This document shows positions 25,161 through 30,796 of a stretch of 42,157 nt of DNA, piece after piece. Below the pieces are notes generated by a model. The model made no database searches. It saw only the letters and a list, made by a program, of their open reading frames with translations, and had not been told where the DNA came from. This stretch comes from Limimaricola cinnabarinus. GTDB taxonomy: Bacteria > Pseudomonadota > Alphaproteobacteria > Rhodobacterales > Rhodobacteraceae. The stretch covers positions 12,837 to 54,993 of the forward strand of contig NZ_KZ304970.1 in the NCBI RefSeq assembly GCF_002723615.1, read 5' to 3'. The position numbers and the translations under genes were made by a program. Position 1 is the stretch's first letter. Every line of letters begins with the position of its first letter.

Positions 25161-25904
25161 ATGCCACTCTCTTTCAATACCGCCGGCTCCCGCATCGACT
25201 GGAAGGCCGCGTTCTCCGCGCTGATGGAGGCGCACAAGGCCAAGGCCGGAAAAGGCGCTGAGCAACCGGCGCCGGATCGGAACAAGGCGCCCGAAACGGC
25301 ATCCAGGGCCGAACCGGCCATCCGCATCGAGATCTCCGAGGCGGCGCGAAAAAGCGCCGCGCCGGAGGCCGCGAAGGCGGTTCTTGCCACGGCCAAGGCA
25401 GCCACAGACCCCGCCGCCGTCCCTCCAAGCGCCGATGCGGTCGCCGCCAAGGCGGGCGCGGCCGTGGCCGAGGCGACCGATGCCGCCGTGAAAGGCGCCG
25501 AGACGGTGACCGCCAGCGCGGACATGGCCGTGACCGGGACGACCGCCGCTGCCGTGCAAGGGGCCGAAGCGGGGGCTGCCAAGGCCGACGCAGACGCGCC
25601 GCAGGCCACGAAGCAAGACGCGCCCGATGCCGCGACACAAGCCCCGAAGACCGCCGAAGACACCGCGCCCGAAGAGGCCGAGATGTCGGATGTCGCCGCC
25701 GCGCGCGCCGCGGCGATCCGGTTGCAGGAGACGAGCCGCCAGCAAAGCCTCGTCACCGCGATCGGTGCCGCCTCCGAGGGGGGCGGCCTTGCGCCGATCG
25801 CGCTGCAAAGCGCCACGCGGGCCGGGGCCGCCTACGAGGCCAGCGCCGCCGCCCCGGCCCTGGCCGAGAGTTCGGCCAGGGCGGGCACCGACACCGCCGC
25901 CTGA
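25161..25904 (+). CDS. Ala/Lys/Glu-rich low-complexity protein, unknown function
   Basis: 247 residues, about one third alanine, without signal peptide or membrane helix. The N-terminus (SFNTAGSRIDWKAAFSALMEAHKAK) and C-terminus (AARAAAIRLQETSRQQSLVTAIGAASEGGGLAPIALQSATRAG) look more ordered. The middle is repeated Ala-Lys-Ala-Glu units, probably helical or disordered. I recognise no family. A GAGG ribosome-binding site precedes the ATG, a strong palindrome lies upstream and a terminator follows, so it is a stand-alone transcription unit. Confidence 0.75.
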   Translation: MPLSFNTAGSRIDWKAAFSALMEAHKAKAGKGAEQPAPDRNKAPETASRAEPAIRIEISEAARKSAAPEAAKAVLATAKAATDPAAVPPSADAVAAKAGAAVAEATDAAVKGAETVTASADMAVTGTTAAAVQGAEAGAAKADADAPQATKQDAPDAATQAPKTAEDTAPEEAEMSDVAAARAAAIRLQETSRQQSLVTAIGAASEGGGLAPIALQSATRAGAAYEASAAAPALAESSARAGTDTAA

Positions 25905-25908
25905 CGAA

Positions 25909-25941
25909 AACCGGGCCGGGGTGCAGCACCCCGGCCCGGTT
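25909..25941. terminator. Bidirectional terminator between the Ala-rich gene and aceA
   Basis: AACCGGGCCGGGGTGC-A-GCACCCCGGCCCGGTT has perfect 16-bp arms. On the reverse strand it is followed by TTTTCGTC, a fair U-tract for transcripts ending aceA; on the forward strand it is followed by CTCCTTG only. Confidence 0.75.
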
Positions 25942-25980
25942 CTCCTTGCCCCGCCGGTCAGGCCCGACCGGCGGATGCTC

Positions 25981-27609
25981 TCATTCGGCCGCGAACTGGT
26001 TCATCGTGTTGGCGTGGCCGCCCGCCTTGAGCGCGCGATCGCCGCCGACCATGACCTTGAAGCTGTCGCCCAGATCCGAGCCGACCTCGTGCTGGTGCTT
26101 CACCGCCGAGATGCCGCGGCGGATTTCCTCGCGCTGCACGGTGGCGACATAGGCCAGCATCCGGTCCTCGCCGAAATAGCCGCGCGACAGCTCGTCCACC
26201 GATTTGGCGGTAAGGTGGAAGGTCGGCAGGGTGATCAGGTTGTGGAACACGCCCGCCTTGGTCGAGATGTCGTATTGGAACCGCTTGAGCCGGGCATCGG
26301 CCTCGCGGCCCAGATCGGTCTCGTCGAACTCGGCCTTCATGAGCTGGGTGCCATCCGGGTAATCGGCTTCGGCGATCTTGCCGGCCTCGATCCAGTCGGC
26401 CCGGACCTGCTTGCGCAGGTTCAGCGTCCAGTTGAAGGAGGGCGAGTTGTTGTAGACCAGCTTGGCGTGGGGCGCCTTTTGGCGGATCTCCTCGACCATG
26501 CCCGCGATCTCGGCGACGTTGGGGGTATCGGTCTCGATCCAGATCAGGTCCGCGCCGCCATCATTGAGCGAGGCCACGCAATCCTCGATCACCCGCGCCC
26601 GGCCGGTGCCCTCCTTGAAGCGCACGAGACCGTTGGGAAGCCGCGCGGGCTTGGCCCAGCCGCCGTCGCGCCACATGGCGATCTCGCCTTCGGTCGGCTG
26701 CCCGTCGAAGCTCTCGGTCTCGATCCACTTGAGGTATTCGGCGGCATGGTCGCCGGGGGCCTGGCTCACCGGGAGCTTCTGGGTCAGCCCCGCGCCGAGG
26801 CTGTCGGTGCGCGCGACGATCACGCCTTCGGTGACGCCCAGCTCCTCGAAGGCCATGCGGCAGGCGCGCAGCTTTTCGATGAAATCCTCGCGCGGGACGG
26901 TGACCTTGCCGTCCTGGTGGCCGCATTGCTTGGCATCCGAGACCTGGTTCTCGATCTGCAGGCAGCAGGCGCCCGCCTTGATCAGCTCCTTGGCGAGCAG
27001 GTAGGTCGCGTGCTCGTTGCCGAAGCCCGCATCGATATCGGCGACGATCGGGACGACATGGCTTTCAAAGCTGTCGATCGCGGTGACGGCCTCGCGCTCG
27101 GCCTCGGCGTCGCCTGCCTCGCGCGCCTTGTCGAGCGCGCGGAACAGGTCGTTGAGCTCGACCTCGTCGGCCTGCCTCAGCGAGACGTAGATCTCCTCGA
27201 TGAGATCAGCGACGGCGGTCTTTTCGTGCATCGACTGGTCGGGCAGGTGGCCCCAGCGGTTGCGCAGACCCGCGACCATCCAGCCCGAGAGATAGACGTA
27301 AGCCCCCTTGGTGGTGCCGCGCAGGCGCTTGACCGAGCGGATCATCTGCTGGGCGTGAAAGCCCGACCAGCAGCCCAGGGACTGGGTGAAATGCTCGGGG
27401 TCGACGTCATAGGCGGCCATGTCGGCGCGCATGACCTTCGCCATGTCGCGGGCGATGTCGAGATGGGTGTTGTAGGTGTTCTGCATCTGAAGCTGCAGGA
27501 TGTCGTCTATGCCGATGCCGCCCGCGGCGGCGCCGTCGGGAAAGCGCGACTGCAGCGCGGCGCGGCGCTCGGCATAGCTCTTGCGGGCGGGAGGGGTCAT
27601 GTCGGTCAT
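25981..27609 (-). CDS. aceA: Isocitrate lyase
   Basis: A 542-residue isocitrate lyase (EC 4.1.3.1) of the longer bacterial subgroup. The catalytic cysteine motif is KQCGH at 227-231, with DIDAGFG at 191-197 and the downstream VYNNSPSFNW loop. It splits isocitrate into glyoxylate and succinate, allowing growth on acetate or fatty acids. MTDMTPP was chosen as the start because upstream in-frame codons overlap a non-coding stretch. The gene follows the malate synthase homologue on the same strand after about 66 bases and is probably co-transcribed from the promoter shared with the divergent RamB-like regulator. Many Rhodobacteraceae use the ethylmalonyl-CoA route instead, so aceA is a distinguishing trait. 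Confidence 0.96.
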   Translation of the reverse strand: MTDMTPPARKSYAERRAALQSRFPDGAAAGGIGIDDILQLQMQNTYNTHLDIARDMAKVMRADMAAYDVDPEHFTQSLGCWSGFHAQQMIRSVKRLRGTTKGAYVYLSGWMVAGLRNRWGHLPDQSMHEKTAVADLIEEIYVSLRQADEVELNDLFRALDKAREAGDAEAEREAVTAIDSFESHVVPIVADIDAGFGNEHATYLLAKELIKAGACCLQIENQVSDAKQCGHQDGKVTVPREDFIEKLRACRMAFEELGVTEGVIVARTDSLGAGLTQKLPVSQAPGDHAAEYLKWIETESFDGQPTEGEIAMWRDGGWAKPARLPNGLVRFKEGTGRARVIEDCVASLNDGGADLIWIETDTPNVAEIAGMVEEIRQKAPHAKLVYNNSPSFNWTLNLRKQVRADWIEAGKIAEADYPDGTQLMKAEFDETDLGREADARLKRFQYDISTKAGVFHNLITLPTFHLTAKSVDELSRGYFGEDRMLAYVATVQREEIRRGISAVKHQHEVGSDLGDSFKVMVGGDRALKAGGHANTMNQFAAE

Positions 27610-27675
27610 GGTGTTGGTCCTTGGTGGGGGTTCGAAGGAGGGGCGCGGGGGGCCTTTCGCCCCCCGCGCCATGGG

Positions 27676-29199
27676 TCAGTCGAGCGTGTCGAGCAGCGGG
27701 GCGGCGAGCCGGGCGACATGGTCGGGCTGCGGGGTGGCGCAGGCGGCCTCCTGCACGATCCGCGCGGCAGAGGCGTAGCGGCCGCGGTGGAAGCTGTGCG
27801 GGCCGAGCCATTCGACCAGCGCCACGATCTCCTCGTGGATCAGCTCGGCCAGCCAGTCGGCGGTCATGCGGCGGCTGTCGCCCGCCTCCATCTTGACCAT
27901 CGCGCCATGCGCCAGCCATTGGCCGAGCCGCGCGCGGGCCAGATCGGCGGAGGCGAGGCCGTGCAGCGCATCGTCGATCCGCACCGGCCCGCGCCCGGCG
28001 ATCCATGCGGCGAGCGCGCCGATGGCGACATGGACCGTGCCGCGCAGCCCGGCCTCGGTGACGGGGCCGGTATGGGGCTTCAGCAGCATCTCCGGGCTGA
28101 TGCGGAAATACTGGCGCGGGCGGCCGATCTGGTGGGACCCCGGCAGGGCGCGGCTGACGGCCTCGCGGGCGGGGTCGATCCGCTCAGGCGCGGTGAGCCA
28201 GAGCCCGTCGCAGCCCTCGTCGAGCGGGCGGCGCAGATCGCCCGGATCGGCGCTGTCGGGCGCTTCGGCGATGGCATGGGTGCCCCGGCGATGCGCGACC
28301 TTGACCATGCGCGCGGCGCAGGTGCCCAGGAAGGCGGCCTCGGGGTCGAGCCTTGCGGGCAGGACCGCCTCGGCATGGGCGCGCATCAGCCGCAGGTAGG
28401 AGGCGGTGAGCGGCGCGCGGCGCAGCGTCAGCCCGAGCGCGCGGTCCTGCAGCTCCGACAGGATCTCGTCCATCTCGAAGCCCGCATTGACGCTTTCGAT
28501 CGAGGCCTCGGCGCGGATCGTGCCGGTGTCGAGCCCCGTGCGCTCTTCGACGAGCCGCAGGATCTCGGCCCAGAGCCGCGCCTCGCGGTGGCTGTCGATG
28601 CCGCCGAGTTGCAGCCATGGCCCCATGCCGCGCTCCGCGAGCGGTGCGGCGAGATGGGTGGCGATGAGCGCCATGTCGAACAGCCCCGCCGAAACCGGGT
28701 GCCCGCCGATCAGGAGCGCCGGCTCGTCGCGCTCCAGCGGGCGCGGACGGATCAGCATTGGCGTGGCCTCGTCCTGCATCTCGGTCAGCGCGGCGATGCC
28801 GGCGACGAGATTGGCAAAGCCGGGTGCCGTGGTCTCGTCGAGATCGACGAGCAGCGTCGTGGCGCCGCTGTCGCGGGCCATGGCCAGCGCCCCGGCCTCG
28901 GCGGCGGTGGCAAGGCCGACGCGCCGGTCGCGCAGGCCTTCGGGCGCGGGGGCGCAGCTCCACATGCCCTTGCGGATATGGGCCGTGTCTTCGAGGTAGT
29001 CGGGCATGCGGCCCGCATCGGCGCACTCCTGACGCCGTTCGCGGGCGACGGAAAGCGCCTGCATCTTGGGGCCGAAGCGGGTCTGAAGTTCGGCGGCCAG
29101 CGCCAGCGCGTCGTCGGTCAGGACGCGGGAAGCGCCGGGCACGTCGCGCAGCAGGACCGGCTTCGGGGCTGCGGGGGCGGGGACGAGATCGAGAGACAT
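27676..29199 (-). CDS. Malate synthase A-like protein with degenerate active site
   Basis: 507 residues, colinear with malate synthase A: LLVDLDETTAPGFANLVAG, LIRPRPLERDEP..LLIGGHPVSAGLFDMAL, GMGPWLQLGGIDSHREARLW, ASIESVNAGFEMDEILSEL, and a C-terminal VTEAGLRGTVHVAIGALAAWI..GRGPVRI. Arg151 and Glu235, matching the catalytic Arg and one metal ligand, are kept. The family signature GLNxGxWDYIF is replaced by GLTLRRAPLTASY (256-268), losing the metal-binding Asp. The C-terminal EDAATAEISR-type motif with the catalytic Asp reads HGLASADLAR. Malate synthase activity is therefore doubtful although the gene is intact and sits with aceA. An AGGAAGG ribosome-binding site precedes the ATG. Confidence 0.82.
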   Translation of the reverse strand: MSLDLVPAPAAPKPVLLRDVPGASRVLTDDALALAAELQTRFGPKMQALSVARERRQECADAGRMPDYLEDTAHIRKGMWSCAPAPEGLRDRRVGLATAAEAGALAMARDSGATTLLVDLDETTAPGFANLVAGIAALTEMQDEATPMLIRPRPLERDEPALLIGGHPVSAGLFDMALIATHLAAPLAERGMGPWLQLGGIDSHREARLWAEILRLVEERTGLDTGTIRAEASIESVNAGFEMDEILSELQDRALGLTLRRAPLTASYLRLMRAHAEAVLPARLDPEAAFLGTCAARMVKVAHRRGTHAIAEAPDSADPGDLRRPLDEGCDGLWLTAPERIDPAREAVSRALPGSHQIGRPRQYFRISPEMLLKPHTGPVTEAGLRGTVHVAIGALAAWIAGRGPVRIDDALHGLASADLARARLGQWLAHGAMVKMEAGDSRRMTADWLAELIHEEIVALVEWLGPHSFHRGRYASAARIVQEAACATPQPDHVARLAAPLLDTLD

Positions 29200-29317
29200 C
29201 TGCGTGACCTTCCTGTTGGCGACGCCGGTGGGAGAGTGTGGCGCCTGTTCTGTCTGTAAGGTTAGTATGGTCATATCGCAGTTGCAGCATAATTTTGTTG
29301 CGAGTGGGTAATCATGT

Positions 29318-29338
29318 AAGTTATGTAAGCCATAACTT
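29318..29338. promoter_or_regulatory. Inverted repeat in the aceB-like/RamB-like divergent promoter
   Basis: AAGTTATG-TAAGC-CATAACTT, a perfect 8-bp inverted repeat in the AT-rich region (29260-29360) between the divergent genes. It is a good candidate operator for the adjacent regulator. Confidence 0.6.
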
Positions 29339-29348
29339 TGAAACTTTG
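29334..29348. promoter_or_regulatory. Tandem AACTTTG motif resembling RamB sites
   Basis: AACTTTG is repeated at 29334-29340 and 29342-29348 (8-bp period), partly overlapping the inverted repeat. RamB of Corynebacterium binds AACTTTGCAAA-like sequences ahead of aceA and aceB; the half-site resemblance is visible, its function here inferred. Confidence 0.5.
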
Positions 29349-29359
29349 TTAGGTATGAT

Positions 29360-30796
29360 ATGGGCGACCGCGGTGAGAAGCTGCTGATCGGCCCCCGGCT
29401 CAAGGCGCTGCGGGTCTCACTCGGCCTGACGCAGGCGCAGATGGCCGGGCGGCTCGGGGTCTCATCGAGCTACGTGACCCTGATGGAGGGCAACCAGCGC
29501 CCGGCCTCGGCCAAGCTCCTGATGCGGCTGGCCGAGGCCTTCGACATCAATGTGAGCGAACTTGCGCCCGAGACCGACGCGCAGCTCGCCGCCGATCTCG
29601 CCGCCGCGCTGAAGGACCCCGCGCTGGAGGCCAGCATCGGCCGGGTCGAGCTCGAACAGGCGCTTTTGGCCGCGCCGAACGTCGCCGCGGCGCTGGTGCG
29701 GCTGCACGACCGCTACCGCCAGCTCGTCCTGTCGCGCCAGTCCGACAGCAACCCGCTGGCGGATCGCGACAAGGTCGAGGTGCTGGAGGAGGGCAGCCGG
29801 GCGGTGCAGGCGGTGCGGGCCTGGCTGTTCGAGCGGCGCAACCATGTCGATGCGCTCGACCGCGCCGCCGAGACCATGGCCGAGGAGATGAAGCTGCACC
29901 GGAGCGAGCCGCACACCGCGCTGACCGAGCGGCTGCACGATCATGGCATCCGGGTGCGCATCCTGCCCTCCGAGGTGATGGCGGGGCGCTTGCGCCAGCA
30001 TGTCGCGCATCGCGGCGAGCTGCGCCTGTCGGAGCTCCTGGGCCAATCGAGCCGCCGCTTCCAGATGGCGGTGCTGCTGGCGCGGCTGGAGCGCGGGCAG
30101 GAGATCGCCGACGAGCTCGCGGCTTCGGGGCTGAGCGATCCTTCGGCGCTGGCGCTGGCGCGGGTGACGCTGGCCAACTACTTCGCCGCGGCGCTGCTGA
30201 TGCCTTACGGGCGCTTTCTCGCCGCCTGCGAAAGCGCGCGCTACGACGTGGAGCTTCTCAGCCACCGCTTCGGCACCAGCTACGAGCAGGTGGCGCACCG
30301 GCTGACCACCTTGCAGCGCGAGGGCGCGCGCGGCATCCCCTTCTTCTTCGTGCGGGTCGATCAGGCGGGCAACATCTCCAAGCGGTTCAGCGCCGGACGC
30401 TTTCCCTTTTCCTCCTTCGGCGGCACCTGCCCCTTGTGGAACATCCACGCCGCCTTCGAGGCGCCCGACCGGGTGCAGACGCAAGTGATCTCCATGCCCG
30501 ACGGCGCGTGGTATCTCTCCATCGCCCGCACCGTGACGCGGCACGGCGGCACGCTGGGCCAGACCGCGACGCGGCTGGCCATCGGGCTGGGCTGCGACGT
30601 CGCCTATGCGCCGCGGCTGGCCCATGCCGAGGGGCTCGACCTCGACCGGATCACCCCGACCGGCATCGGCATCAACTGCTATCTGTGCGAACGCCCCCAC
30701 TGCGCCAGCCGCGCCCACGCGCCGGTCAATCGCAGGCTGGAGATCGACGAGAGCGAGCGGGGGTTGGCGATTTACCGGTTCGAGGGGGAGAGGTGA
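29360..30796 (+). CDS. RamB/ScfR-like XRE-family regulator
   Basis: 478 residues. An N-terminal XRE helix-turn-helix (about 11-66, LKALRVSLGLTQAQMAGRLGVSSSYVTLMEGNQR) is followed by an ImmA/IrrE-like region and the C-terminal domain of short-chain fatty acyl regulators, with GIPFFFVRVDQAGNISKRFS, GGTCPLWNIHAAF and the cysteine cluster INCYLCERPHC. Known relatives (RamB, PrpR-type) sense acyl-CoA or propionyl/acetyl status and control the glyoxylate or methylcitrate genes. Divergence from the aceB-like/aceA pair fits that role. The start has only a weak AGG ribosome-binding site and a TATGAT immediately upstream. Confidence 0.9.
   Translation: MGDRGEKLLIGPRLKALRVSLGLTQAQMAGRLGVSSSYVTLMEGNQRPASAKLLMRLAEAFDINVSELAPETDAQLAADLAAALKDPALEASIGRVELEQALLAAPNVAAALVRLHDRYRQLVLSRQSDSNPLADRDKVEVLEEGSRAVQAVRAWLFERRNHVDALDRAAETMAEEMKLHRSEPHTALTERLHDHGIRVRILPSEVMAGRLRQHVAHRGELRLSELLGQSSRRFQMAVLLARLERGQEIADELAASGLSDPSALALARVTLANYFAAALLMPYGRFLAACESARYDVELLSHRFGTSYEQVAHRLTTLQREGARGIPFFFVRVDQAGNISKRFSAGRFPFSSFGGTCPLWNIHAAFEAPDRVQTQVISMPDGAWYLSIARTVTRHGGTLGQTATRLAIGLGCDVAYAPRLAHAEGLDLDRITPTGIGINCYLCERPHCASRAHAPVNRRLEIDESERGLAIYRFEGER

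Follow-up and report, generated by a model that had tools for sequence, protein, structure and literature searches.

A candidate malate synthase A pseudoenzyme kept in the isocitrate lyase operon of Limimaricola

Limimaricola cinnabarinus carries, next to its isocitrate lyase gene, an intact gene whose product has the fold of malate synthase A (MSA) and very probably makes no malate. On balance, and with its function suggested by patterns of constraint, we lean towards reading this gene as encoding a conserved pseudoenzyme, derived from MSA, with a non-catalytic role for its C-terminal domain. It lies in what we call the window, i.e., the whole 42,157-nucleotide stretch of DNA analysed here, and we refer to it as the variant ms (a variant of aceB).

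In the scheme we propose, the protein would have kept the MSA fold while losing the ability to make malate, with the glyoxylate-cycle step taken over by a malate synthase G (GlcB) encoded elsewhere. It would presumably be expressed under RamB along with isocitrate lyase, and a non-catalytic job of its C-terminal helical domain would keep the gene, most likely the binding of a partner (e.g., the co-produced isocitrate lyase or the regulator). We consider a binding role for that domain plausible rather than probable.

The glyoxylate shunt is a textbook pathway of two enzymes. If the preferred reading is true, the genus would hold a dead copy of one of them in the operon that encodes the second, and so offer a clear example from nature of an enzyme converted into a non-catalytic partner. 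The open-licence literature, which leaves most subscription journals outside, yielded no description of an inactive malate synthase or malate synthase pseudoenzyme in Limimaricola. The case also calls for caution with annotation, as the copy on an L. variabilis plasmid bears the automated label malate synthase A, a gene very unlikely to make malate.

Fold and active site of the variant protein

The variant ms occupies positions 27676-29199 on the minus strand and consists of 507 codons plus a stop, with no internal stops, so the initial annotation was right to call it intact. All three Pfam malate synthase domains (N-terminal, barrel and C-terminal) score above their own cut-offs. The NCBIfam malate synthase A model, TIGR01344, covers residues 26-493 at 268.6 bits, less than half of its curated cut-off of 594.5 bits, so the family cut-off is not reached; three other Limimaricola sequences score 235-255 bits, and five of six active relatives score 669-726 bits (the sixth, from Paracoccus aminophilus, scores 582.6). 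Only two solved sequences match the protein, the malate synthases A 3cuz (E. coli) and 3cux (B. anthracis), and both align to it with no gaps across the metal motif and the base motif. An AlphaFold2 model from a 36-sequence alignment reached a pLDDT of 90.3 and a pTM of 0.91 (this model was used, and one from five sequences, with a pLDDT of 51.8, was set aside), and its best Foldseek match in the PDB is E. coli MSA (3cv2, TM 0.90). Pfam, AlphaFold2 and Foldseek thus agree on an MSA fold that includes all three domains, in line with the whole-length homology first claimed for this gene. The TIM-barrel part comprises residues 91-355 (28135-28929, minus strand) and the C-terminal domain residues 356-507 (27679-28134, minus strand). 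Predicted elements include a helix at residues 261-271, which holds the metal motif, strands at 406-408 and 411-413, and a helix at 415-430.

By alignment, the catalytic arginine (Arg151, codon 28747-28749) and the metal-binding glutamate (Glu235, codon 28495-28497) are retained, both on the minus strand and both invariant in all seven Limimaricola sequences. The metal motif, GLNCGRWDYIF in MSA, reads GLTLRRAPLTA, and codons for Ala262-Pro263 (28411-28416, minus strand) replace Trp277-Asp278 of E. coli MSA, where the aspartate is a metal ligand at the start of the glyoxylate-binding helix. The base motif, MEDAATAEISR in MSA, reads LHGLASADLAR, and codons for His413-Gly414 (27958-27963, minus strand) stand in place of Glu-Asp447, the aspartate being the catalytic base. 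The initial annotation had named these two retained and two lost residues, and all four calls hold. It had also read the HPGL segment as TAPE, which hides a conserved proline: the segment reads APER, the histidine is lost, and Pro369 of E. coli MSA, which stacks on adenine according to excerpts of PMC3112382, is kept as Pro338. The E. coli numbering of that paper equals the 3cuz chain number plus one, an offset derived from Asp447 and Cys438 (the latter is Pro405 in the variant, by alignment to 3cuz).

Other acetyl-CoA contacts named in the excerpts of PMC3112382 have changed as well: Thr95 is Ala97, Met102 is Ala104, Ile94 is Leu96, and Met330 falls within a segment deleted from the variant. 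The same excerpts describe the glyoxylate carboxylate as bound by the backbone NH groups of two consecutive helix-start residues, the second of which is the metal aspartate, and report that replacing the catalytic base of E. coli malate synthase G (D631N) left no measurable activity. Judging by its chemistry, Pro263 at the second helix-start position could not bind the metal or supply an NH group. Because the base is missing, one of the two protein ligands of the metal is lost, Pro263 has no NH to offer and the CoA contacts are mostly gone, we are confident, though not certain, that the protein is dead as a malate synthase. A role as a divergent CoA-ester enzyme, one option in the initial annotation, is disfavoured and rated low, as most of the named acetyl-CoA contacts are lost.

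Operon, pathway and distribution

The isocitrate lyase gene (icl/aceA, 25981-27609, minus strand) is of the PRK06498 type, passes that model's cut-off and retains the KQCGH motif. Among solved structures it matches 6g1o, from P. aeruginosa, best, over residues 21-495. It begins 66 bp after the variant ms if its start is at 27609, and there is another in-frame ATG at 27672. On the other side lies a divergent ScfR-family RamB-like regulator gene (ramB, 29360-30796, plus strand), which scores above the Pfam ScfR cut-off and reaches 412 bits vs 700 for the NCBIfam RamB equivalog. Both neighbours are therefore as the initial annotation described them. The order of divergent ramB, ms and icl recurs in genome G107, on a 213-kb plasmid of L. 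variabilis and in all six neighbourhoods of active ms genes that were opened. Between ramB and ms, a block at 29255-29274 on the minus strand (hand-counted coordinates) can be aligned between Limimaricola and active ms-icl operons, making it a candidate regulator site. Excerpts of PMC10370305 describe RamB as controlling the glyoxylate-cycle operon of P. denitrificans by binding upstream of ms, and give the ligands of Paracoccus RamB as CoA-ester intermediates of the ethylmalonyl-CoA pathway.

A search of the window for RNA families gave none at its gathering score, and sigma-70 and terminator patterns were not found in 27500-29500. An antisense open frame of 1210 codons (25627-29259, plus strand) covers icl and the variant ms. 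We considered it as a cause of the conservation and rejected it as a high-GC effect, with an antisense frame that stays stop-free along the entire stretch in 3/10 loci (those of the window, of L008 and of L043, an active relative). Adjoining icl is an alanine-rich ORF (25161-25904, plus strand); at 25429-25589 it contains a degenerate tandem repeat of 66 bp.

The genome encodes GlcB at G000:C1:551553-553691 with a score above the cut-off, so the second malate synthase that had been predicted elsewhere is there. Judged by eye, its arginine, metal glutamate, metal aspartate and base aspartate motifs are in place. GlcB exceeds the cut-off in seven of eight Limimaricola genomes, and glcB is split in the remaining one (G394). 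Genomes with an active ms also have GlcB (a match in 12/12, above the cut-off in 11), so the redundancy probably predates the loss of catalysis. Crotonyl-CoA carboxylase/reductase (Ccr) exceeds its cut-off in none of the eight Limimaricola genomes (best score 75.8 bits vs 378.55), and the window's own genome encodes two PF03328 proteins, one HpaI-like and one CitE-like, which both fall below all equivalog cut-offs listed. With GlcB present, these results make a glyoxylate shunt via AceA and GlcB the likely route. The genus keeps a RamB-like regulator although Ccr is above the cut-off in no genome and, per excerpts of PMC10370305, Paracoccus RamB ligands come from the ethylmalonyl-CoA pathway; Limimaricola may be unable to make these known CoA-ester signals.

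A match to the variant ms occurs in all eight Limimaricola genomes, as a contig-edge fragment in G396 and as three pieces in G394. Pairing by contig coordinates equates G394, G395, G397, G398 and G399 with loci L006, L007, L005, L004 and L008, and G107 is L010. The base aspartate is absent from all eight (the window, L004, L005, L006, L007, L008, L010 and the G396 fragment), and this, together with the match in every genome, means that the residue loss is not chance. The metal-motif site is covered in seven genomes and is proline in six, with aspartate only in G107/L010, the deepest branch. Shared substitutions among orthologues are thus borne out for the base but not throughout for the metal ligand, and as G107 keeps the metal aspartate without the base, the base was probably lost first. 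In L. cinnabarinus LL-001 (G394/L006) the gene is broken at two places into three frame-broken pieces, with ramB and icl whole on the same contig. Sequencing error is one possible cause, glcB also being split in that assembly, and real decay is another.

A scan of genome contigs that detects close relatives only returned five loci, every one from Limimaricola, and tblastn on plasmid records gave 79 matches, one at 83% identity (L. variabilis) and 78 below 60%. In a family-level sample (394 genomes, 393 genera) there were nine matches: the window's own, G107, six active-looking sequences at 42-48% identity, and a short match in G229 (residues 307-359, within a 740-residue frame). MSA was matched in 10/390 genomes of an order-level sample and exceeded the cut-off in 70/385 of a class-level sample, where, once the G1030, G675 and G940 fragments are excluded, the window's own was the sole full-length sequence below the cut-off among the matches listed. 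All 30 non-Limimaricola alphaproteobacterial MSA sequences have the arginine, the glutamate and both aspartates, and 29 have the metal-motif tryptophan (P. aminophilus has arginine there); this set comprises 11 loci, 7 order-sample loci and 12 of 30 class-sample loci, and includes some near-duplicates (e.g., L014 and L049 are one genome).

In the tree, seven Limimaricola sequences (two from L. variabilis) group as one clade (support 1.0), whose stem measures 0.86 substitutions per site. Measured from their common ancestor with 14 active relatives, they lie at a distance of 1.29-1.32, vs 0.17-0.55 for the active sequences. The clade's position beside P. aminophilus may reflect long-branch attraction. 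The P. aminophilus ms, on plasmid pAMI6 (L041:4956-6563), narrowly misses the family cut-off at 582.6 bits; it has an altered metal motif, GLCCGARDF, keeps both aspartates, is annotated merely as an aldolase/citrate lyase family protein, and is possibly a milder case of the same drift. Malate synthase A is also found on 41 IMG/VR contigs among L084-L149 (two partial), which apart from L084 itself are 50-64% identical to L084; these could be metabolic genes carried by phages, or the viral collection may include host contigs.

PRK06498-type isocitrate lyase exceeds its cut-off in 12 of the 394 family-level genomes, and these include two Limimaricola, six with icl beside an active-looking ms and four without ms (G018, G058, G120 and G363). 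For the last four, no ms match was found in the 11-13 kb around each icl or in the family-wide search, and all have GlcB above the cut-off. In G018 (L180, G018:C1:1074000-1085000) ramB and icl are direct divergent neighbours, and G363 has an incomplete or interrupted icl. Outright loss of ms is therefore possible, which makes the genus-wide keeping of a dead copy more telling.

Selection on the gene

Pairwise dN/dS among six Limimaricola sequences is given here for 13 of the 15 pairs, with the two closest (L004-L005 and L008-L039) set apart. The variant ms gives ratios of 0.175-0.269, icl 0.085-0.185 and ramB 0.087-0.163, with dS of 0.38-0.47, 0.23-0.37 and 0.35-0.48, respectively. The two closest pairs give 0.097 and 0.086 for the variant ms. 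Its GC3 is 0.91, so dS is likely underestimated and the ratios are probably upper estimates.

Constraint is unevenly spread along the gene. The barrel (residues 91-355) has a dN/dS of 0.281 among five Limimaricola species vs 0.159 among seven active relatives, and the C-terminal domain (356-507) has 0.117 vs 0.271, where the contrast inside each set weighs more than the absolute values, the active set being more diverged (pS about 0.49). In smaller steps, and with Limimaricola given first, the ratios are 0.258 vs 0.272 for residues 1-90, 0.259 vs 0.131 for 91-180, 0.422 vs 0.133 for 181-270, 0.195 vs 0.220 for 271-355, 0.102 vs 0.233 for 356-430 and 0.133 vs 0.309 for 431-507. Relaxation of the barrel among these five species is thus confined to residues 91-270, and 271-355 are unrelaxed. 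The barrel-minus-C-terminal difference in pN was equalled in none of 5000 codon permutations. Measured between the five species and G107, the barrel has a dN/dS of 0.576, the C-terminal domain 0.314 and the gene as a whole 0.442, and here the C-terminal domain is tighter only relative to the barrel and is not below the 0.271 of active relatives. DNA-level constraint behind the conserved C-terminal part was rejected: pS in 50-codon steps is 0.23-0.36 with no 3' drop (0.325 for the barrel, 0.278 for the C-terminal domain).

In 11 active relatives 190 columns are invariant, a count that omits any column deleted in the window; the seven Limimaricola sequences all keep 99 of them, all lose 60 and are mixed at 31. 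Among the 60 lost columns, 41 are fixed for one identical new residue. The equivalent count for icl is 343 invariant positions, with 333 kept and two lost genus-wide (both lysine to arginine); nothing positive emerged as a genus-specific change in icl, so there is no sign of it adapting to a new partner. In a neutral simulation of one lineage with 500 runs per level, the frame stayed stop-free 109 times at 0.1 substitutions per site, 18 times at 0.2 and twice at 0.4, and the six copies in the alignment besides the window's are stop-free. Pseudogene status of the window copy is rated low given its dN/dS, regional constraint and GC3. An intact ORF under purifying selection without catalytic residues is what one expects of a pseudoenzyme, and the window copy fits this description, with the broken L006 copy and the ratio of 0.442 against G107 counting against it.

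Competing explanations and known systems

The two aspartates might be supplied from neighbouring positions, leaving an active malate synthase, an objection already foreseen in the initial annotation. We find this barely credible. In favour of it, all seven Limimaricola sequences have an acidic residue 410 (Asp or Glu), which the model places in the lid hairpin, but this residue falls in the turn that joins strands 406-408 and 411-413, and it is Gly414 that takes the predicted hairpin-to-helix junction, the place of the base aspartate in solved structures (AlphaFold2 model with the description in excerpts of PMC3112382). The 13-residue metal motif, GLTLRRAPLTASY, contains no acidic residue at all. 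A new reaction on the same barrel, e.g., that of a lyase or a hydrolase relying on Arg151 and Glu235, is less far-fetched yet still improbable. The invariance of these two residues would suit it, as would the change of Glu121-Asp122 to an Asp-Glu fixed in all seven sequences and that of Trp277 to Ala262, since malyl-CoA lyases have alanine at that position (excerpts of PMC3832036). However, a new active site would sit in the barrel, to which the least constrained stretch of the protein belongs (residues 181-270, dN/dS 0.422 among five species); the base aspartate, which malyl-CoA lyases also use according to the same excerpts, is missing; and among the CoA contacts only Pro369 is kept and Ile94 is leucine, Thr95 and Met102 being replaced and the Met330 segment deleted.

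The gene could also be a relic in slow decay, in which GlcB redundancy led to the loss of catalysis and the ORF survives only because a harmful fold has to be avoided or because it benefits icl expression. We think this unlikely, though it accounts for much: constraint weaker than that on either neighbour, 60 of 190 invariant positions lost in all seven sequences, the whole-gene ratio against G107, a broken copy in one of eight assemblies, and a C-terminal domain that is not absolutely tighter than in active relatives when G107 is the reference. The relaxed barrel, strongly so against G107, is expected equally from a change of role. Decay does not readily explain a dN/dS far under 1 (with dS probably underestimated), a C-terminal domain tighter than that of active relatives among five Limimaricola species, lost positions that mostly share one new residue, or six further stop-free copies when neutral runs seldom stay so; and a 66-bp gap, if the icl start is right, makes translational coupling unlikely. 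We therefore prefer the conserved pseudoenzyme with a non-catalytic C-terminal role. The binding or regulatory role offered in the initial annotation is the option that relative C-terminal constraint favours, and the new reaction it also offered stays as the rival discussed above. A stronger version, in which ms turned genus-wide into a dedicated non-catalytic partner, its degenerate barrel a carrier and its C-terminal domain binding and tuning isocitrate lyase or the RamB-like regulator, so that one of the shunt's two genes would now regulate it, is doubtful.

Among known systems, malate synthase A (AceB; TIGR01344, 3cuz, 3cux) is the closest, sharing the whole-length fold, the catalytic arginine, the metal glutamate and the place in the ms-icl operon, but it has the metal aspartate, the catalytic aspartate and all the named CoA contacts. 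The P. denitrificans operon (RamB-ms-icl, Pden_1365-1363) has the same gene order and orientation as the window, per excerpts of PMC10370305; it differs in that the Limimaricola ms product is degenerate and Ccr, the ethylmalonyl-CoA pathway marker, stays below the cut-off genus-wide. Malate synthase G has a related barrel, is encoded by a separate intact gene, and by annotation performs the malate synthase step of this genome. Malyl-CoA lyases and CitE-like proteins resemble the variant in having alanine at the Trp277 position, but they keep their catalytic residues (metal acids and, per excerpts of PMC3832036, the base aspartate) and do without the MSA N-terminal domain, whereas the variant is the reverse, with Pro263 and Gly414 in its active site and the N-terminal domain in place.
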